DNA of 40,886 bases from NCBI GenBank assembly GCA_029262855.1, contig JAJCYP010000063.1:1-40886 (forward strand), in the 5' to 3' direction. The translations under genes and the position numbers were made by a program. A model generated the notes under the pieces. That model made no database searches and was not told the DNA's origin. It worked only from the letters and a program-made list of their open reading frames with translations. Within the stretch, counting starts at the first letter, position 1. The number at the start of each line of letters is the position of its first letter. This stretch comes from Bacteroidota bacterium. Lineage in GTDB: Bacteria; Bacteroidota; Rhodothermia; Rhodothermales; UBA10348. Positions 29,094 through 39,006 of this stretch are shown here, piece after piece.

Positions 29094-29954
29094 TCAACCT
29101 GTCCGAAGACGCGAAGCCACCACATCGGCGCAGCGCTGCGCAGCGCCCGGCTGCGACAGGAAGAGAACGGGCTCGATGAGTTCGAGCTCCAGGACCGCGG
29201 GTTCATCTTCCCACAACACCAGGTCAACGCGGGCGAACAGCGGCGTGCGGGGCAGTCTCGAGAACAGACGCCGAGCCAGGGCCAATTCGGCTTCCGATGG
29301 AATTACGGGGACCGACGCGCCGCCCAATTCCTCCTGTACCCGAAAGTCGCCGGCACCCGGCGTCTTGCGCATGGCGTGGCTGAAGGCGCCGTCGAAGTAG
29401 ATCAGGGAGGTCTCGCCGCGGGTCCGGATGGAGGGGACGAAGGGCTGTATCAGTGTGCGCATTCCAGCGAGGGCGGCTGTGGCCTCCGCAACAGTCGAGG
29501 GATCAGCCGCCTCCATCAGGAACGTCTTGTAGGCAGAGGCGCCGACGGCGGGTTTCGCAACAACGCACTCGCTGGCCGCCTTCTGGAAGGCGGCCAGCGG
29601 GACCCCGCAGGATATCACCGTGGGGACCACGCGGACCCCCCGGTCCGCGAGGTCCAGGAGGTACCCCTTGTCGGCGTTCCAGCGTACCAGATCCAGCGCA
29701 TTCCAAAGCACGGCCTCTCGGTGAATCCGCTCCAGCGCCGACAGGAATTCGAGAAGGTTCAGGTGGTAGTCCCACGTCTCGCGAATAAGCACGGCGCGGT
29801 ATGCCGACCAGTCCATGTCCGATGTCCACGGCACGAACTCAACAGTCCAACCCAGATCAGAGAGGGCGGGTACAAGCGCCCGCTCCTCCCGGGCCAGGTC
29901 CGAATACGGTCCTGGCCCGGGAGCAACGAGAATGGCTAGGGTCTGGCTGGGCAA
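29094..29954 (-). CDS. ATP-grasp domain protein (DcsG/RimK-like ligase)
   Basis: A 286-residue ligase-like enzyme. I place the start at TTG 29954 with GGAG seven bases upstream; the frame is open to 30101, but that would overlap the barrel gene and precede the homologous start (TLAILVAPGPGPYSDLAREE). The N-terminal Rossmann-like part has LIRETWDYHLNLLEFL. The central lid has RWNADKGYLLDLADRGV and the ATP-binding VAKPAVGAS (K134). The metal-binding end motif is ELELIEPVLFL at about 256-266. Relatives join a carboxylate to an amine, such as in D-cycloserine formation (DcsG). No other biosynthetic gene is near, so the substrate is unknown. It follows the barrel gene by 46 bp, with a strong hairpin between them. 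Confidence 0.85.
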   Translation of the reverse strand: MPSQTLAILVAPGPGPYSDLAREERALVPALSDLGWTVEFVPWTSDMDWSAYRAVLIRETWDYHLNLLEFLSALERIHREAVLWNALDLVRWNADKGYLLDLADRGVRVVPTVISCGVPLAAFQKAASECVVAKPAVGASAYKTFLMEAADPSTVAEATAALAGMRTLIQPFVPSIRTRGETSLIYFDGAFSHAMRKTPGAGDFRVQEELGGASVPVIPSEAELALARRLFSRLPRTPLFARVDLVLWEDEPAVLELELIEPVLFLSQPGAAQRCADVVASRLRTG

Positions 29955-29963
29955 CGTCGTGCT

Positions 29964-29989
29964 CCGGAGGCCCGGGATCGGGCCTCCGG
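29964..29989 (-). promoter_or_regulatory. Strong hairpin before the ATP-grasp gene
   Basis: Positions 29964-29973 (CCGGAGGCCC) and 29980-29989 (GGGCCTCCGG) form a perfect 10-bp GC-rich stem with a 6-nt loop. It lies between the barrel stop and the TTG start and overlaps two bases of the GGAG ribosome-binding site (29962-29965, minus strand). There is no T-tract. It could act as an attenuator, an mRNA stabiliser or a translational gate. Confidence 0.55.
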
Positions 29990-30000
29990 GGCCCGGCGGG

Positions 30001-30708
30001 TCAGAATGCGAGAGTAACTCCGAACCGCGGCTGCACGATATCGACCCGAGATCGGGTGGTATTGAAGGAAATACTGCCGGGCTCGCGCTCAATATCCCCA
30101 CTGCGGAGGTACTCCGCCTCCCCGCTGAGCAGGTAACGCGCTCCGAACGTCAGATACACCTGACCGGGGCGCCGGTCATCGCCCATGAGTCCATCCCAGA
30201 CCCTGAAGTCGATTCCGGCACCAAGGCCATAGCTGCGGGTGAAATCATCCTGATTCGTGGAGCCGATGATCTCCTCGTCGTAGTCATAATCCACCAGTGA
30301 GGTCTGCGTCCAAAGGTACTTGAAGCCGTAGAGGGCATCGACGTAGGGTCTAACCTTCCCACTGACCGGCTGGAGCCGGATCATGGCGTGCACCTGGGCG
30401 AGATTGTTGGTGGTTTGAACCCTTGCATTGATGTCGGGAATCGTCATCGAGAGGGGTTCGCGCCTGTTCTCGGTCCCATAGACGTGCGCGGCGGCATCGA
30501 GTCCGATCATCACGGGCGAGAGCCCCACGTGCTTTCCGGCATGGAAGTTCAGCCCAAAGCCGGCTTCGTTCATGTTCTCACTGAACGCGCCCTGAGGCAC
30601 GGCCAGTGCCAGGTCGAGGCCGAATTCGGTGCCACGCTGGGCGGATGCGGTCAGAGGAATCAGGAAAAGGAGGAGTGCAAGGCTGAGGCCGTAGCGATTG
30701 TCTTTCAT
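30001..30708 (-). CDS. Small outer-membrane beta-barrel protein
   Basis: A 235-residue secreted protein. The ATG at 30708 begins a signal peptide (MKDNRYGLSLALLLFLIPLT, cleaved after ASAQ); an in-frame ATG at 30738 is less likely. The mature part alternates polar and hydrophobic residues in short strands (FGLDLALAVPQ, GFGLNFHAGKHVG, MIGLDAAAHVYG) and ends in a terminal strand with phenylalanine last (QPRFGVTLAF), as expected for barrel insertion by the BAM machinery. It resembles general OmpW/OmpA-like porin-type proteins of FCB bacteria, but no specific family is named. It precedes the ATP-grasp gene on the same strand. Confidence 0.8.
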   Translation of the reverse strand: MKDNRYGLSLALLLFLIPLTASAQRGTEFGLDLALAVPQGAFSENMNEAGFGLNFHAGKHVGLSPVMIGLDAAAHVYGTENRREPLSMTIPDINARVQTTNNLAQVHAMIRLQPVSGKVRPYVDALYGFKYLWTQTSLVDYDYDEEIIGSTNQDDFTRSYGLGAGIDFRVWDGLMGDDRRPGQVYLTFGARYLLSGEAEYLRSGDIEREPGSISFNTTRSRVDIVQPRFGVTLAF

Positions 30709-30829
30709 CGTATTCGCCGTGTCGTGATTGATGGACATCTCACGGCGCTTCACCTATCCTCTGGGCCCTGAATCGGACCAGCACCGCTTGGCCGTTCCAT
30801 TCTGCAATGCGGGTGCCTGATTCCCCGTC

Positions 30830-31420: not shown

Positions 31421-32599
31421 ATGAGCATGTTCAAGCCTTTCCCGCCAAGGCCCATGCAGCCTGGATTTCTTTCGACCCTGCTGCTGGCGATTCTGGTTGT
31501 CACTCCAGTCCTGGCCCAGACGTCCCAGGGTTCTCGCAATGTATCGCTGCTGGGGCGAGCCCCGGTTCGCGCCGGGGGCGCGGTTGTGGCCCTTGCGCTT
31601 GACCAGCGTAGGCCACTGGCCTACGTCGCCCACGAGAGCGGGATCTCCGTGGTGGATACCGAGCATTTTGGCGTCGTTTCGAGCTGGACTTTGGGGTTGG
31701 ACGGGATCAGGGATGTGGTCCAATTCGGTGACCAGGGAGTCGCACTGGCTACCGAGCAAGGTGTCCGGTTTGCGGCGGTTTCGGATGACGGCTCGCTGGT
31801 GCCGGGCCGTTTTGCCCCTGCTTCGGGCATCCGGGCGTTGGCCGGCTATCGACATTCGTCCGGAGCTTCTTATCTGCTTGCCGCCGGCAAGAACGGGGTC
31901 ACCGTGATGGGCGATGAGTCGTCTGCCCTGATTCCCGTTCCAGACGACGTCCCGGGACGCGAACGCGGAGCGTTTGGCGTCTACGCCGCCTACGATCTTT
32001 CCTCCGAGCAGGACCGCCTATACATGGCTGCCGCCGGAGGCTACTTTGTTTTCGATATCTCCGACGTGGTCGCAGCGGAGCTACTCACGTGGGTGAACTC
32101 GGCGGCGATTCAGAACGGCGTCGGTATTCAGGCATCGCCCGACGCGACCACAATCGTCACGACCACCGACTACGCCTCGGCTCCGGTGCGGATTTTCGAC
32201 CTCCGGCCTGCCCTGGACGGAACCATCTCGCAGGTTCGCACGGCATCTGGAGCCTGGACGGCTGACTGGCGCTCGCACGCCGAGCGTTTTCAGGTCAGGT
32301 GGCCCTACGTGTTTGTGGCCGGAAGGGACCAGGGTTTCCGGATGTTCAACATGCGAAACGTCTACGAACCCTATTCGACGGCCTGGTTCAGAACGGCGCA
32401 GCCTGGCGCCGAACTCGGGGCGATAGACATAGACGTCCGCAATTCTGATGGACTCGTGGCAGTCCTGGATGCGGACACGGGCCTGTGGCTACTCCAGATC
32501 GAGGACTTCCGCGGCTGGGACGGTCGGGGATGGGGATTCGGAAATATCAGTGCGGTTCAGGACTGGGATCAGGGACCACTCGGAGCAGACCAATGGTGA
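31421..32599 (+). CDS. LVIVD-like secreted beta-propeller, divergent paralogue A
   Basis: A 392-residue secreted protein starting at ATG 31421 (ATG 31427 is also possible), with a signal segment LSTLLLAILVVTPVLAQ. The propeller repeats align with paralogues B-D, especially VYAAYDLSSEQDRLYMAAAG, APVRIFDLRPALDG, QVRWPYVFVAGRDQGFRMFN and VRNSDGLVAVLDADTGLWLL. Of the nine histidines shared by B-D only the one in RHSSG remains: GHTFTP is GIQASP here and HNHEVRWPF is AERFQVRWPY. The block around DLHT is missing. If the histidines bind metal, this copy is a non-catalytic or structural member. Its stop overlaps the start of B by 7 bp (ATGGTGA), so the two are translationally coupled. Confidence 0.85.
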   Translation: MSMFKPFPPRPMQPGFLSTLLLAILVVTPVLAQTSQGSRNVSLLGRAPVRAGGAVVALALDQRRPLAYVAHESGISVVDTEHFGVVSSWTLGLDGIRDVVQFGDQGVALATEQGVRFAAVSDDGSLVPGRFAPASGIRALAGYRHSSGASYLLAAGKNGVTVMGDESSALIPVPDDVPGRERGAFGVYAAYDLSSEQDRLYMAAAGGYFVFDISDVVAAELLTWVNSAAIQNGVGIQASPDATTIVTTTDYASAPVRIFDLRPALDGTISQVRTASGAWTADWRSHAERFQVRWPYVFVAGRDQGFRMFNMRNVYEPYSTAWFRTAQPGAELGAIDIDVRNSDGLVAVLDADTGLWLLQIEDFRGWDGRGWGFGNISAVQDWDQGPLGADQW

Positions 32600-33996
32600 C
32601 CATGACCAGCTCACGCTTCGCGTCCGCGCTGCTGGTTGCGGCGCTGGCCTCGGCACCTTCGGCCTCGGCCCAGACGCCCGTCGACCAGCCCGGACATCCG
32701 CCCGCACCCGGAGAGCGGGGCAGCACAAACCTGCACGTTGTCGCCCACATTCCCCTGGGACTCGCCGGCTCTGTGTCGGACGTCGAGGTGGAGCAGGAGC
32801 TCAGCCGACCCTTCGCCTACGTCGCACGGCGTTCCGGCGAGATCGGCTTTGACGTCATCGACCTGAGTGACCCGTCCAAGGCACGCGTGATCCACCGGTG
32901 GCGGATAGAGGACCAGGATCTTCACACCGGCGGCGCCATGGACGGCCGCTACTTCAAGCACGAGGGGCGGTACTACTACGTACAGTCCATGCAGCTTCGG
33001 CAATCGGGACCCAACTCAGACGTCGGCGCCATTGTGTTCGACGTCACCGATCTGCCCGAACGCATCGTGGAGGTGGGCCGCATCCGTCAACCCGATAATC
33101 CGGGCGGCTTCCATAACACGTTCCTGTACAAGCACAGTAGCGGCAAGCCCCTCTACTTCGCCACCTCCGGGCAGTATGCCAAGGTGTTCGACATGGACCG
33201 ATTCCTGGACGGAGACCAGAACGAGATGGATCCGATCCTGCGCGACGCCAACCAGTCGCTGGTGGGCCAGGTACCGGTTCCACAAACGGAAAACCTCTGG
33301 TCGCGCGGCTACCACGACTTCTACGTGGGCTATCACGCTGAGACCGGGACCGACCGATTTTACGGGGGTGGTGGAAGCGGCTTCTACGTCTACGACGTCT
33401 CGGATCTGGCGGACCCGGAACTGCTGGTTTCCATTGTCGGCGTTCCAGGCGTCTCATGGGGGCACACCTTCACGCCCACGCCCGACGGAAATTTTGCCGT
33501 CGGCGAGACCGAATTCCAGTATCAACCGCTGAGGGTCTTTGACCTGCGACCGGCGCTGGAGGGACCCGAGAAGAACATCGACCGGGCCGCCGGAATCTGG
33601 CACGCAGACTGGAAGGCGCTCGCCCACAATCACGAAGTGCGGTGGCCCTTCGTATTCGTCTCCGGGTATGAGAGCGGCCTCAGTGTCTTCAACATGATGG
33701 ACCCGACCAATCCCCACACGGTCGGGTACTACGATACCTTCGATGGTATCCACAACAACCGGGTCGAGGCCATGCAGCGGCTGGGTAGCCCCTATACCTG
33801 GAACGTCTACGATGGGGCCTGGGGCGTGGATGTCCGGAATGCCGACGGACTGATCGTGGTAAGCGACATGACCACCGGATTCTGGGCCTTGCGTATGGAC
33901 GGCTTTGACCGCTGGTACGGACCCGACTGGGGACAACCCGATATTTCGAGTGCACAAGACTGGGACCTGGGTCCCAAGCGAATACAAGATCAATGA
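32593..33996 (+). CDS. LVIVD-like secreted beta-propeller, paralogue B
   Basis: A 467-residue protein. The ATG at 32593 overlaps the end of gene A; the ATG at 32602 is an alternative that keeps the same signal peptide (SRFASALLVAALASAPSASA). A proline-rich linker follows, then propeller repeats resembling LVIVD repeats (FDVIDLSDPSKARVIHRWRI). Histidine-bearing blocks are all present: VAHIPLG, DLHTGG, GGFHNTFLYKHSSG, YHDFYVGYH, GHTFTPTPDG and HNHEVRWPFVF. It is a little longer than C and D because of an insert near DMDRFLDGDQNEMDPILRDA. I infer a periplasmic or surface metal-binding enzyme, but no reaction can be stated. Its stop overlaps the start of C in an ATGA arrangement. Confidence 0.88.
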   Translation: MVTMTSSRFASALLVAALASAPSASAQTPVDQPGHPPAPGERGSTNLHVVAHIPLGLAGSVSDVEVEQELSRPFAYVARRSGEIGFDVIDLSDPSKARVIHRWRIEDQDLHTGGAMDGRYFKHEGRYYYVQSMQLRQSGPNSDVGAIVFDVTDLPERIVEVGRIRQPDNPGGFHNTFLYKHSSGKPLYFATSGQYAKVFDMDRFLDGDQNEMDPILRDANQSLVGQVPVPQTENLWSRGYHDFYVGYHAETGTDRFYGGGGSGFYVYDVSDLADPELLVSIVGVPGVSWGHTFTPTPDGNFAVGETEFQYQPLRVFDLRPALEGPEKNIDRAAGIWHADWKALAHNHEVRWPFVFVSGYESGLSVFNMMDPTNPHTVGYYDTFDGIHNNRVEAMQRLGSPYTWNVYDGAWGVDVRNADGLIVVSDMTTGFWALRMDGFDRWYGPDWGQPDISSAQDWDLGPKRIQDQ

Positions 33997-35306
33997 GAAC
34001 AATTGCCTTGGCCCTGGTGGCCCTCCTCCTTCTTCCCGAAGCACAGGCGCAGGAGCCCGTCAAACGGGGCTCAGACAACATCGAAGTGGTGGGTCACATT
34101 CCGCTCGGCAAGCGGCTGACCGTCACAGACATCGAGATGGAACAGGAACTCGAGCGACCCTTCGTCTACGTAAGTAGAGCGTCGCTGGTGGACGGGGGAC
34201 CGAAGGGTGTCGACATGATCGACATCTCTGATCCTGCCCATCCCAAGGTGCTCCTTCGCTGGCGCCTCGAGGATCAGGACCTTCATACGAACCGTGGAGG
34301 AATGGACGTCAAGTACTTCAAGTGGGAAGGCCGCTACTACATCGTCCAGAGCTTTGAATTCAGTCAGGGAGGACCGAACGCAGACCTCGGTGCGGTGATC
34401 TTCGATGTGACCGCCCTCCCCGACGCGAGCGGCGTCAAGGAAGTGGCCCGACTCCGCCATCCGGACGCGCCGGGCGGCTTCCACAACATCTTTATCTACA
34501 AGCACTCCAGCGGAAGAGCGCTCCTGCTTACTACCACCCGGGGCGGGCCTGCCCACGTCTACGACCTGGGGCGCGCCGTTTCCGGTGACCTCGATGGTGC
34601 TCTCGTGGGAACGGTGCCGATCCCGGCCGCGGCCGCTGCCGGAGACCGCAGCACCTCGTATCACGATCTCTACGCGGGGTATCACCCGGACACCCAACAG
34701 GATCGGTTCTACGGTGGCGGAACGGGCGGCTACTACGTGTACAACATCACCGATCTGCAGCATCCTGAGATGATTGTGAGCCTGATGGGAGTCCGCGGAG
34801 TGGATTGGGGCCACACCTTCACGCCAAGTCCAGACGGACGCTACGCGGTCGCCGAGGTGGAGTACCGGTATGCGCCGCTTCGCATTTTTGATCTCAAGCC
34901 GGCGCTGGATGGCGAGAGGACCAACATCAACAACCCCATCTCGGCCTGGACGCACAACTGGAAGAACCTGGTTCACAATCACGAGGTCCGCTGGCCGTTC
35001 GTCTTCACCGCCAGTTATATGGATGGCTTCGCCGTCTTCTCCCTGATGGACCCGGAGAACCCCGTCACCCTTGGCACCTACGACACCTACACGGGGCCCG
35101 AATCGTACGATTTCATTCCCTACATCAACGGCGCCTTCGGCGTGGACGTCCGCAATGAAGACGGACTCATCGTTGTCAGCGACATGACCACCGGGCTTTG
35201 GACGTTCCGAATGGATGGATTCAACGGCTGGAACGGAAATGACTGGGGACAGCCCGACATCTCCAGCGTGCAGAAGTGGGATGATCCGCCCCCCGGCACG
35301 AACTAG
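33993..35306 (+). CDS. LVIVD-like secreted beta-propeller, paralogue C
   Basis: A 437-residue secreted protein with signal peptide MRTIALALVALLLLPEAQAQ. Its start overlaps the stop of B (ATGA), which indicates translational coupling. The nine histidines shared with B and D are H35 (VGHIPLG), H98 (DLHT), H164 (GFHN), H171 (KHSSG), H224 (YHD), H231 (YHPD), H274 (GHTFTP), and H328 and H330 (VHNHEVRWPF). Further shared blocks are KYFKWEGRYYIVQSFEF, DRFYGGGTGGYYVYNI and GLIVVSDMTTGLWTFRMDGF. Histidines on several blades recall the copper sites of selenium-binding/methanethiol-oxidase proteins and of nitrous-oxide reductase, although no specific homology to those is claimed. It is closest to D. Confidence 0.9.
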   Translation: MRTIALALVALLLLPEAQAQEPVKRGSDNIEVVGHIPLGKRLTVTDIEMEQELERPFVYVSRASLVDGGPKGVDMIDISDPAHPKVLLRWRLEDQDLHTNRGGMDVKYFKWEGRYYIVQSFEFSQGGPNADLGAVIFDVTALPDASGVKEVARLRHPDAPGGFHNIFIYKHSSGRALLLTTTRGGPAHVYDLGRAVSGDLDGALVGTVPIPAAAAAGDRSTSYHDLYAGYHPDTQQDRFYGGGTGGYYVYNITDLQHPEMIVSLMGVRGVDWGHTFTPSPDGRYAVAEVEYRYAPLRIFDLKPALDGERTNINNPISAWTHNWKNLVHNHEVRWPFVFTASYMDGFAVFSLMDPENPVTLGTYDTYTGPESYDFIPYINGAFGVDVRNEDGLIVVSDMTTGLWTFRMDGFNGWNGNDWGQPDISSVQKWDDPPPGTN

Positions 35307-35333
35307 ATTACAGCCTGACCTCCGTTGACCCCT

Positions 35334-35359
35334 GGTACGGAAGACACAATCACCGTACC
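35334..35359. promoter_or_regulatory. Inverted repeat between propeller genes C and D
   Basis: GGTACGG at 35334-35340 and CCGTACC at 35353-35359 are perfect 7-bp arms with a 12-nt centre. They lie in the only sizeable gap (73 bp) of the cluster, about 20 bp before gene D, with a TTGACC at 35324-35329 just before. It may be an operator of an internal promoter or an RNA hairpin that changes expression between C and D. Confidence 0.45.
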
Positions 35360-35379
35360 GAGCAAACTGCCTACCTGAC

Positions 35380-36705
35380 ATGAAGAACCTGCTTGCCGCG
35401 TTCAGCCTGATGCTGATCGCACTCCCCGCTCTGGCCCAGAATGACACGCCGTGGACGGCGCTCAAGCCCGGGTCCGACAATATGACTGTGGAAGGGCACA
35501 TCTCACTTGGAGCTGGGCTCAACACGATGGATATGGAGATCGAGCAGGAGTTGTCCCGCCCGTTTGCCTACGTCTCCCGCGGAACGGTTGGCGCCGGGAC
35601 CGAGCGCGGTACCGACATCATTGACCTCTCTGATCCGGGCAACCCCAGGGTCATCTACAAATGGCGCATCAACGACCCAGACTTGCATACCGGGCTTGGC
35701 GGCATGGACATCAAATACTTCAAGTGGGAGGGCCGCTACTATGTGGTCCAGTCCACCCAGTTTGGGTCGGGACCGGACAATGATCTGGGCGCCGTGATTC
35801 TGGATGTCACCGGCTTGCCTGACGCCAGCACGGTCCGTGAGGTGGCGCGGATTCATGCCCCGGACCTGCCGGGTGGCTTCCACAACATCTTTATCTACAA
35901 GCACTCTTCAGGACGCGTCCTGCTGCTGACCACGGTAGGCGGTCCGCAGGCAAATGTCTATGACCTGGGCATGGCCGTAACAGGCAAACTGGACACCGCG
36001 CTGATCGGGGCGGTCCCCGGGCCGGATACTCAGGCAGGACCCTTTCGCTCCTACCATGATCTCTATGCGGCGTGGCATCCCGACTCGCAGCAGGACCGTT
36101 TCTACGGTGGCGGCACCGGGGGCTACTTCGTCTACGATATCACGAACATCGACGAGCCGGAGCTGCAAGTGACCCTGTCTGGCATCACCGGGGTAAACTA
36201 TGGACACACGTTTACGCCGAGTCCCGACGGGCGATACGCCGTGACCGAGACTGAATACCAGCATGCCCCGCTTCGCATGTTCGACATGAAGCCCGCGCTG
36301 GACGGCGAAGTCACCAACATTCGTCAGCCGATTTCGGCGTGGACAGCGAACTGGAGGAATCTGGTGCACAACCACGAAGTCCGGTGGCCCTTCGTCTTCG
36401 TCTCAGGCTACCACGACGGCCTGCAGATCTTCAGCATGCAGGATCCGGAAAACCCGGTGACCGTCGGCTACTACGACACATACACCGGGCCCCGCAACGT
36501 CGGTGTCATGGCGGGCAACGTGGCAAATGGCGCCTTTGGCGTGGATGTTCGCAATGCGGACGGACTCATCGTTGTCAGTGACATGACCACCGGTTTCTGG
36601 ACCTTCCGCATGGAGGGCTTCAACGGCTGGAAGGGCACCGACTGGGGTCAGCCCGACATCTCCAGTGCCCAGAAGTGGGATGAGCCTCAGCCCGGCACCA
36701 ACTGA
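35380..36705 (+). CDS. LVIVD-like secreted beta-propeller, paralogue D
   Basis: A 441-residue secreted protein with signal peptide MKNLLAAFSLMLIALPALAQ. It aligns with C along nearly its whole length: TDIIDLSDPGNPRVIYKWRI, DLHTGLGGMDIKYFKWEGRY, GGFHNIFIYKHSSGRVLLL, YHDLYAAWHPDSQQDRFYGG, GHTFTPSPDGRYAV and NLVHNHEVRWPFVFVSGYHD. All nine shared histidines are kept. The C-terminus (WGQPDISSAQKWDEPQPGTN) nearly matches that of C. It is separated from C by 73 bp holding an inverted repeat, and the next gene begins 8 bp after its stop, so D, the small secreted protein and the oxidase probably form one transcription unit. Confidence 0.9.
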   Translation: MKNLLAAFSLMLIALPALAQNDTPWTALKPGSDNMTVEGHISLGAGLNTMDMEIEQELSRPFAYVSRGTVGAGTERGTDIIDLSDPGNPRVIYKWRINDPDLHTGLGGMDIKYFKWEGRYYVVQSTQFGSGPDNDLGAVILDVTGLPDASTVREVARIHAPDLPGGFHNIFIYKHSSGRVLLLTTVGGPQANVYDLGMAVTGKLDTALIGAVPGPDTQAGPFRSYHDLYAAWHPDSQQDRFYGGGTGGYFVYDITNIDEPELQVTLSGITGVNYGHTFTPSPDGRYAVTETEYQHAPLRMFDMKPALDGEVTNIRQPISAWTANWRNLVHNHEVRWPFVFVSGYHDGLQIFSMQDPENPVTVGYYDTYTGPRNVGVMAGNVANGAFGVDVRNADGLIVVSDMTTGFWTFRMEGFNGWKGTDWGQPDISSAQKWDEPQPGTN

Positions 36706-36713
36706 TCAACACC

Positions 36714-37271
36714 ATGAAACGCCTCCTTTTCCTGGCGGCTTTCCTGCTGACCGCCGGAGCCCTGACGCTTCCGGTTTCGCCCTCAGTCGGGTCCCCTGCA
36801 GGGTCGACCTGTGCGGTCGGCGATGGACCGCCGCGGTACTACGCGATCGATCTGGTGACCACCAGGCGCCTTCCCGGCGCACGGATGGCCCGCGGAAAGG
36901 CCGACGTGGTGTTCGCGCGCTCACCATTTGGCTTGGCGCTCTCAGCCGATGGCAGCTACGTCTATGAACTGCTCATCTCGATCGACAATCTGGCTCCTGC
37001 CCGGAATGGCGCGTACGTAGCCTGGGTTACCACGCCTCAGTTGGACCAGCGCGTTCGGTTGGGCGCCCTGGATGCAGACCACAAGGTGTCCGGCTCCGTC
37101 GGATGGAATAAGTTTTTGGTGGTCGTCACGCTCGAGGACGATGAAGCAGAGGGCGCTCAATCCTGGACGGGTCCGGTGGTTGTTCGAGGAATGTCCCGCT
37201 CGGGACTGATGCACACGCAGGCGGGGCACGGTCCATTCGAGGCGGAGCCCTGCGCGGTTTATGGTTACTAG
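36714..37271 (+). CDS. Secreted protein of unknown function linked to the multicopper oxidase
   Basis: A 185-residue protein with a signal peptide (MKRLLFLAAFLLTAGALTLP). The mature part looks like an all-beta, Ig-like domain: LISIDNLAPARNGAYVAWVT, LGALDADHKVSGSVGWNKFL, VVVTLEDDEAEGAQSWTGPV and VVRGMSRSGLMHTQAGHGPF. Two cysteines, near residue 33 (STCAVGD) and near the end (EPCAVYGY), could form a disulfide. A His/Met-bearing segment near the end (GLMHTQAGHG) might bind copper; this is speculation. It lies 8 bp after propeller D and 25 bp before the oxidase, so it is likely part of the same operon. I do not recognise the family. Confidence 0.75.
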   Translation: MKRLLFLAAFLLTAGALTLPVSPSVGSPAGSTCAVGDGPPRYYAIDLVTTRRLPGARMARGKADVVFARSPFGLALSADGSYVYELLISIDNLAPARNGAYVAWVTTPQLDQRVRLGALDADHKVSGSVGWNKFLVVVTLEDDEAEGAQSWTGPVVVRGMSRSGLMHTQAGHGPFEAEPCAVYGY

Positions 37272-37296
37272 CGCGCCCTTCTGCGGCGTCATACGA

Positions 37297-39006
37297 ATGA
37301 AGTATTTGATGCGGCACCTCACCGTGGCGCTTGTGATCCTCTCCCCGATCGTGGCGATGGGACAGGATCACAACATGATGAACCACGCCGGGATGGAAAT
37401 GGGAGCCGGCGACAGCCTCGCCTGGCGCATGCCGCCCATGAACATGTCGATGCCCATGCTGCCTGGGCTGGAGAACGCGGTCCCGGTTGTCGGGCCCTTC
37501 CTGGCCGGTCAAGGGATGAACCCGATGATATTTCCCGAAGGCGAGCCGCGCCGTGTGGTGGAGATGGCCGATGGAGACACGCTTCACCTGGAGGCTTCGC
37601 TGATTCGCCGGACGATTGGCGAGAAGGTCTTCGTGATGTATGGTTACAATCGCCAGTATCCGGGGCCTCTGATCCGCGCCGAACGGGGCTCGGAGGTCAC
37701 GGTGCATTTCACCAACAACATCGAACTTCCAACGACCGTTCACTGGCACGGACTTCGCCTGGACAACGCCTCTGATGGGGTCCCCGGAGTAACCCAGCCA
37801 CCTGTCCTTCGGGGCGAGTCGTTCACCTACCAACTGAAGTTTCCGGACACCGGGATCTACTGGTACCATCCGCACATGCGGGAGGATATTCAGCAGGACC
37901 TGGGTTTGTACGGCAATATGCTGGTGGATCCCGAGAATGAGGGGTACTACAGCCCCGTGAACCGGGAGGAGGTGCTGGTTCTGGATGACCTTCTGGTCGA
38001 TGCCACCGGGATCATTCCCTATGGAGACGAGGCACCCACGCACGCCCTCATGGGTCGCTTCGGAAACGTCATGCTGACCAATGGCATGACCGACTATGGG
38101 CTGTCGGTGCAGCGGGGCGAAGTGGTCCGGTTCTACATCACGAATGTCGCCAATTCGCGGACGTTCAATCTGGTCTTCGAGGGCGCACGCGCCAAGATCG
38201 TGGCCAGCGACGTGTCCAAGTACGAGCGGGAGGACTACGTCAGCAGCGTGGTCATTGCGCCGGCAGAACGGTACGTGGTGGAAGTTCTCTTCGATGAGCC
38301 GGGGACGTTCTCGATCAAGAACAAGGTCCAGGCCATTAATCACTTTCGCGGGGTGTTCTACCCGGAGGAACACCTGCTGGGGACGGTCGAGGTGGGGGAA
38401 GACGCGGTCTCAGTGTCGCATCGCGAGGAGTTCGAGATGGCCCGTGTCAATCTCGACGTCGCCGAAGATCTCCTCCGCTACCGATCCGAATTCGATCGGA
38501 CTCCGGACCATACCCTCGAACTCACGCTCCGCGTAAAGGGGCTCCCGCTACCCATCGTCCGTTCGATGGAAATCGATACGCTGTACGTGCCGCCGGTGGA
38601 GTGGAACGATGCCATGCCCATGATGAACTGGCTCTCGAGCGCCGAGCAGGTGGACTGGGTGATCCGTGACGTCGACACCGGGCGGGAGAACATGGATATC
38701 GACTGGAGCTTCGGCGTCGGGGACGTGGTCAAGATTCGGGTGTTCAATAATCCGAAGTCATTCCACCCGATGCACCACCCGTTTCACATCCACGGACAGC
38801 GCTTCCTCGTGGTATCCATGGATGGCGTGAAGAACCCGAATCTGGTCTGGAAGGACACGGCCATCGTGCCGGTCGGTTCAACGATGGACTTTCTGGTGGA
38901 CATGTCCAATCCCGGCGACTGGATGGCGCACTGCCATATTGCCGAACATCTCCACTCCGGAATGATGCTGGGATTCAGCGTCACCGAAGGAGATCGGTCC
39001 CAGTAG
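37297..39006 (+). CDS. Secreted multicopper oxidase with Met-rich N-terminus
   Basis: A 569-residue periplasmic or exported enzyme. The ATG at 37297 precedes a signal peptide (YLMRHLTVALVILSPIVAMG); the frame is open from 37261, overlapping the previous gene. The mature start is rich in Met and His (NMMNHAGMEMGAG, MPPMNMSMPML), as in copper-resistance oxidases. Copper motifs are complete: HWHG (H149, H151), YHPHM (H191, H193), HPFHIHG (H494, H497, H499) and HCHIAEHLHSGM (H545, C546, H547, H551 and axial M556). It should oxidise a substrate with four-electron reduction of oxygen to water. The substrate could be Cu(I), Fe(II), Mn(II) or an organic compound and cannot be fixed here. It closes the propeller cluster. 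Confidence 0.94.
   Translation: MKYLMRHLTVALVILSPIVAMGQDHNMMNHAGMEMGAGDSLAWRMPPMNMSMPMLPGLENAVPVVGPFLAGQGMNPMIFPEGEPRRVVEMADGDTLHLEASLIRRTIGEKVFVMYGYNRQYPGPLIRAERGSEVTVHFTNNIELPTTVHWHGLRLDNASDGVPGVTQPPVLRGESFTYQLKFPDTGIYWYHPHMREDIQQDLGLYGNMLVDPENEGYYSPVNREEVLVLDDLLVDATGIIPYGDEAPTHALMGRFGNVMLTNGMTDYGLSVQRGEVVRFYITNVANSRTFNLVFEGARAKIVASDVSKYEREDYVSSVVIAPAERYVVEVLFDEPGTFSIKNKVQAINHFRGVFYPEEHLLGTVEVGEDAVSVSHREEFEMARVNLDVAEDLLRYRSEFDRTPDHTLELTLRVKGLPLPIVRSMEIDTLYVPPVEWNDAMPMMNWLSSAEQVDWVIRDVDTGRENMDIDWSFGVGDVVKIRVFNNPKSFHPMHHPFHIHGQRFLVVSMDGVKNPNLVWKDTAIVPVGSTMDFLVDMSNPGDWMAHCHIAEHLHSGMMLGFSVTEGDRSQ

Follow-up and report, generated by a model that had tools for sequence, protein, structure and literature searches.

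Exported propeller proteins (P), a small secreted protein (E) and a multicopper oxidase (M) are encoded together in a gene unit that is real, widespread and, as far as the literature was searched, undescribed; a full-text search, which covers few subscription papers, returned no published description of it. The unit is exemplified by six genes of the window, i.e., the whole stretch of 40,886 nucleotides analyzed here, from a Bacteroidota bacterium of the order Rhodothermales. We think it fairly probable that these genes specify an exported three-component module, made of M, its partner E and one to eight metal-holding seven-bladed propellers. Multicopper oxidases are often found without a known physiological partner; here, in several phyla, M is accompanied by two apparently obligate partners, one of which is sometimes fused to it.

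The Gene Array

All six genes lie on the forward strand between positions 31427 and 39006, the propellers A to D in tandem being followed by E and then by M:

31427-32599 (alternative ATG at 31421), strand +: propeller A, first in the array, degenerate, with one of the nine histidines kept (H171)
32593-33996, strand +: propeller B, with all nine histidines and an LVIVD match of 20.4 bits; member of the second-position clade
33993-35306, strand +: propeller C, with all nine histidines; the protein used for the structure model
35380-36705, strand +: propeller D, with all nine histidines
36714-37271, strand +: E, a small secreted beta-sandwich protein of 185 aa with the conserved tail MHTxxGHG...C
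37297-39006 (reading frame open from the ATG at 37261), strand +: M, a multicopper oxidase with three Cu-oxidase domains and a His/Met-rich mature N-terminus

Neighboring genes overlap or are separated by at most 73 nt. Signal-like segments are found at the N-terminus of every product, propeller, E or M; that of M is a clean signal peptide, opened by the ATG at 37297. The gene order claimed by the initial annotation (four tandem propellers, a small secreted beta protein and a Met-rich oxidase, tightly packed) is borne out by these coordinates. When the region was scanned for promoters and terminators, the number of sites was not above that of shuffled sequence. Upstream of the array, the reverse strand encodes an outer-membrane beta-barrel protein (PF13505) and an ATP-grasp protein (PF02955), at 30001-30753 and 29094-30101.

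Conservation of the Unit

P, E and M form a conserved unit and not a local chance arrangement. Relatives were collected by scanning one genome per species; 251 were confirmed, and the best 80 of these 251 (60-91% identity) were kept, originating from Rhodothermales, other Bacteroidetes, Gemmatimonadetes, Gammaproteobacteria and one Acidobacterium. Profiles for the three components located P, E and M in this order and on one strand in 57 of the 80 loci, among which 39 have a single propeller and the largest array has eight. Ten further loci are interrupted by a contig end within 2.6 kb and 13 consist of a lone propeller with contig to spare. The gap between E and M is usually about 0.1 kb, although it reaches 8 kb in one locus. 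These counts exclude an all-against-all clustering, which had merged overlapping frames.

The same linkage is seen at the level of whole genomes. Among 395 genomes of the window's phylum, 21 have P (E-value 1e-20, no more than four matches being scored in any genome); E occurs in exactly these genomes, and every one of them also has M. These counts are not independent trials since related genomes share the unit by descent. All three are on one contig in 19 of them; the two others, G293 and G356, have P on a contig different from that of E and M. Within one genus (g12), P and E are both present in four genomes and both absent from two. Propellers lacking a nearby oxidase, which the initial annotation held would speak against its proposal, do occur as the 13 lone loci, but they seldom correspond to genomes devoid of the partners: of the 21 genomes searched because a locus of theirs has no E and M close by, 20 have M elsewhere and 20 an E domain. 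In one propeller genome, G418 (locus L018), both E and M are missing at the thresholds applied, and in another, G415, E exists only in an oxidase-fused form and a second M is incomplete. The proposed association of exported propellers with the oxidase is supported.

In a second phylum, also represented by 395 genomes, P was found in 122 and an E match in 175, with 119 genomes having both, three P only and 56 E only. Ten of the E-only genomes are among the matches listed; six of these have frames of 722-872 aa, i.e., the length of fused E-M proteins, and the other four have short frames, two of them at contig ends. Twenty regions hand-picked in this phylum comprise 11 with the order E-M-P, four with P-E-M, three with a lone propeller, one with P-E and an upstream oxidase fragment and one with E-M at a contig end. 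The order has thus changed while the linkage was kept, which is stronger evidence than a conserved order alone.

Histidines and Ordered Paralogues of the Propellers

The initial annotation had put forward nine invariant histidines in propellers B, C and D. In a MAFFT alignment, positions 35, 98, 164, 171, 224, 231, 274, 328 and 330 (numbering of C) are indeed histidine in B, C and D, propeller A having only H171; the statement is literally true of B-D, but for the family it goes a little too far. Among 156 His-type propellers, drawn from the first 80 loci plus window B-D, seven positions (H35, H164, H171, H224, H274, H328 and H330) are histidine in 156 of 156, with H231 conserved in 143 and H98 in 130. 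A further 26 propellers share 49-65% identity with C; in these, eight of the nine positions are histidine in 25 or 26 of 26, with Asp replacing H231 in 20. The positions that vary are H98 and H231.

In a FastTree phylogeny of 150 propellers, 127 rows, those of the His type, form a single clade. The 23 rows outside this clade are, without exception, first genes of arrays, on long branches whose exact placing is unsure. The second-position genes, such as propeller B, form one clade of 24 rows, one of which comes from a contig starting inside an array, and propellers C and D of the window belong to two further clades of 25 rows each. As the position in the array matches the clade, the order is ancient, and the copies probably cannot replace one another. 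Judging from these phylogenetic relationships, array members are old, ordered paralogues, probably with distinct roles. Propeller A has lost the putative site and may have a structural role. In the 21 A-type rows, the putative metal site of the first propeller is mostly lost, position 328 being Glu in 18, yet the gene is kept, in a pseudoenzyme-like manner. Lone His-type propellers located away from E and the oxidase (e.g., L012, L014, L016 and L026; range L023-L088) group with window C.

A Branch of the Choice-of-Anchor B Family

Profile comparison assigns the propellers to a distant branch of the choice-of-anchor B family (TIGR04312; LVIVD repeats, PF08309). Aligned by hhalign with 21 choice-of-anchor B proteins, the propeller profile matches over the full length (probability 99.3, E 3.3e-20, 341 columns). 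Against TIGR04312, B, C and D score 42, 51.6 and 50.1 bits, below the NCBI curated cut-off of 100. Regarding the LVIVD repeat, whose gathering score is 20.2, B matches with 20.4 bits, A, C and D have no match at E 1, and 31 of 60 propeller family members have one at E 0.1.

The residues shared with these proteins are D46, D105, H164, N165, Y223, H224, D225, H274, E290, H328, N329 and D364 (each in 20-21 of 21), with D46, D105, H224, D225, H274, E290 and H328 identical in all 21 and H164 in 20; the position of E50 is Asp in 21 of 21. In contrast, the position of H330 is histidine in none of the 21 and those of H35 and H231 in three, while H98 and H171 are not at positions listed among the shared residues. 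Since four histidines and their accompanying acids are common to choice-of-anchor B proteins, this core is old and five histidines have been added in the oxidase-linked branch.

Among the matches listed, choice-of-anchor B proteins number 11 in the window's genome (contigs C85, C47, C65, C45 and C48) and up to 21 per genome in relatives. The family has no assigned function in the models used. In Pseudoalteromonas xiamenensis (L138:5521-10193), a choice-of-anchor B gene stands beside genes for the copper-protein pair MbnP and MbnH (on which see PMC3621798), a possible independent copper link. As a general copper link of the family, this association was rejected, being a single Pseudoalteromonas case: no further choice-of-anchor B gene with MbnP/MbnH was found in the plasmid set, and none of six weak MbnP matches in 31 relatives adjoins a choice-of-anchor B gene among the matches listed.

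Fold of the Propeller

An AlphaFold2 model of propeller C, built with 60 sequences (mean pLDDT 92, pTM 0.92), has seven four-stranded blades, the seventh being closed by the N-terminal strand according to the strand order. In this model, the inner strands of blades 3, 4, 5 and 6 are predicted to begin at H164, H224, H274 and H328/H330, respectively, and H98 is just ahead of the inner-strand start of blade 2 in the strand list. Two inner strands have H171 and H231 at their far ends, and H35 is on the closing outer strand, so that the nine histidines cannot all form one site. Six of the nine fall in segments around inner-strand starts, which make up 56 of the 418 residues (p 3e-4, for segments picked after seeing the data), vs. 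12 of the 65 invariant residues other than histidine. The convergence of the histidines in a central channel, which the initial annotation had suggested checking on a predicted structure, has the support of topology only, i.e., of a confidently predicted seven-bladed propeller with six of the nine at inner-strand starts. With VIA-align, WD40 proteins come first (Z about 30-31), matches that inform on the fold only.

Protein E and its Fusion to the Oxidase

The model of E (pLDDT 84) consists of an eight-stranded sandwich followed by a tail, with residues 135-145 and 147-154 under pLDDT 50. This low-pLDDT tail is the best-conserved part of the protein: the motif MHTxxGHG is present in 82 of 94 E reading frames (not dereplicated), and divergent E proteins usually retain just its later histidine. 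Two other assignments of E were rejected as too weak, namely RskA_C (matched by seven of 31 members, best E 0.005) and a relative of surface-layer propellers, the best PDB profile match (whole E 6e-5, with no stretch below 0.4).

Eleven of the 21 genomes, that of the window among them, have a second gene encoding an E domain placed N-terminal to an oxidase (about 700-830 aa), and E-M fusions were also found in 11 reading frames read directly. In the window's genome, a protein of 696 aa made of a fused E-like domain and a multicopper oxidase is encoded at L119:8551-10641 on the reverse strand (contig C53). The MHTxxGHG tail is replaced in all three fused E-M proteins inspected. Such fusions speak for E acting with M. 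The initial annotation had noticed neither these fusions nor the old order of the paralogues nor the affinity to choice-of-anchor B proteins, in which four of the nine histidines are already there.

The Multicopper Oxidase

M has the three Cu-oxidase domains above cut-off, with 112.8 bits for Cu-oxidase_3 (PF07732), 59.7 for Cu-oxidase (PF00394) and 98.5 for Cu-oxidase_2 (PF07731). Across 22 aligned oxidases, the copper motifs HxH, HxH and HPxxHPxHxHG are each present in 22 and HCHxxxHxxxxM in 21, the remaining sequence ending before this motif. The Met-rich character that the initial annotation gave to the oxidase is real at the N-terminus, where the motif WRMxPM...MP is found in all 22 and in 66 of 85 reading frames of a wider, non-dereplicated set. 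We read the His/Met-rich mature N-terminus as a probable sign of copper binding.

Proposed Function and Alternatives

In the module that we favor, M would be a Sec-exported multicopper oxidase and E a small beta-sandwich that docks on M or serves it, the His, Met and Cys of its tail bridging P and M. P would bind its metal close to the opening of the central channel, where H164, H224, H274 and H328, one per blade at the inner-strand starts of blades 3 to 6, would bind one metal, most likely copper. P could then oxidize a small substrate, M serving either to take up the electrons or to supply copper, or it could pass copper to or from M. Regarding the parts of this proposal, the propeller likely has a metal site, copper is the leading candidate metal, with chances that we would call even, and the linked set probably handles metal jointly outside the cytoplasm. 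Far more tentatively, the unit might be a redox system in which the multi-histidine center, made of five histidines added to an older site of four histidines and acids, is the catalytic or copper-carrying partner of M, E is a physical bridge and the arrays of paralogues provide several parallel specificities. If true, it would give a first mechanistic handle on the large choice-of-anchor B family. Indeed, because the site of four histidines and acids is common to this family, with its 11 matches in the window's genome, a result obtained on B-D would extend to many proteins.

Among the alternatives, the most probable one, although unlikely, is copper detoxification and storage, in which M would be a cuprous oxidase like CueO or CopA, with P and E acting as non-catalytic periplasmic copper sinks or chaperones. 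The curated models nearest to M are those of CueO and copper_res_A, though the scores are far below the cut-offs (157.5 bits vs. 525 for the CueO equivalog NF008205, and 134.5 vs. 478.95 for TIGR01480), and the oxidase N-termini are rich in His and Met. In addition, all 50 rows returned by VIA-align for E are of the superoxide dismutase type, including the superoxide dismutase copper chaperone; however, their Z scores of 7.5-8.9 are borderline, and Foldseek gave nothing at E 0.001 and ranked other proteins ahead of this type. The barrel histidine ligands of Cu/Zn superoxide dismutase are not conserved in E, whose only invariant histidines are in the C-terminal tail. Moreover, neither a copper ATPase, CopB or CopC nor the product of any other copper gene is among the 19 neighbor proteins collected at 14 loci, which argues against detoxification, and an acid-rich, Cys-free site with one histidine per blade resembles an active site more than a sponge.

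A quite improbable reading makes P a hydrolase that depends on a metal, as does the Sphingobium phosphotriesterase, with the link to the oxidase reflecting a common catabolic pathway and not a common metal chemistry. The Sphingobium enzyme (5hrm), a metal-dependent seven-bladed propeller according to the title of its structure paper as cited in PMC11656708, is the top solved Foldseek match of the C model (E 1.5e-11, TM 0.61, 16% identity) and the only family below 0.1 in a PDB profile search with the propeller family (E 0.005); it is absent from the 50 VIA-align rows, and a PDB sequence search with C alone returned nothing at E 10. Against a catabolic link, the lineages have no other catabolic genes in common, the same 19 neighbor proteins sharing no Pfam family (15 had Pfam hits), and the E-M fusions together with the phylogenetically wide P-E-M unit favor a direct partnership with the oxidase. 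Still less probable is manganese or iron oxidation as by mnxG-type operons, which pair a multicopper oxidase with a propeller gene of another family: the mnxG operon of Pseudomonas putida GB-1 does include a beta-propeller lactonase-family gene, as described in PMC8218464, but M is a three-domain, CueO-like enzyme and the propeller family differs.

Comparison With Known Systems

M shares with CueO and CopA the three Cu-oxidase domains, the four copper motifs and the Met-rich character. It differs by scores reaching about 30% of the curated cut-offs, by the lack of a Tat-like motif (0 of 69 oxidases by a simple pattern), by its obligate neighbors P and E and, in some cases, by fusion to E.

Nitrous-oxide reductase is a propeller with many histidines, and the initial annotation had invoked it along with SBP56 (methanethiol oxidase). 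As relatives of B-D, both lack sequence support. Kinship with NosZ was rejected on an hhalign comparison with five NosZ proteins, a thin profile (probability 0.2, E 0.34), and no NosZ model was found in the NCBIfam scan at E 1. The window's genome has a separate clade II-type NosZ gene (G000:C59:37332-39131, reverse strand; 929.8 bits vs. a cut-off of 625). For SBP56, kinship was rejected since PF05694 has no match in B-D at E 1 and none in 60 family members at E 0.1; neither its HH nor its HxxH motif is present in C, and a search for SBP56 genes in 41 related genomes gave one match above cut-off and none suited to profile building. SBP56, or SELENBP1, is a copper-dependent seven-bladed propeller with a cavity containing His, Asp and Glu (PMC10362175).

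The Sphingobium sp. TCM1 phosphotriesterase has in common with C a seven-bladed propeller and LVIVD-like repeats; it is a hydrolase, and the likeness observed here is one of fold. Finally, compared with the choice-of-anchor B proteins, in which the four-histidine core is present without a known oxidase link, the B-D branch is tied to E and to the oxidase.
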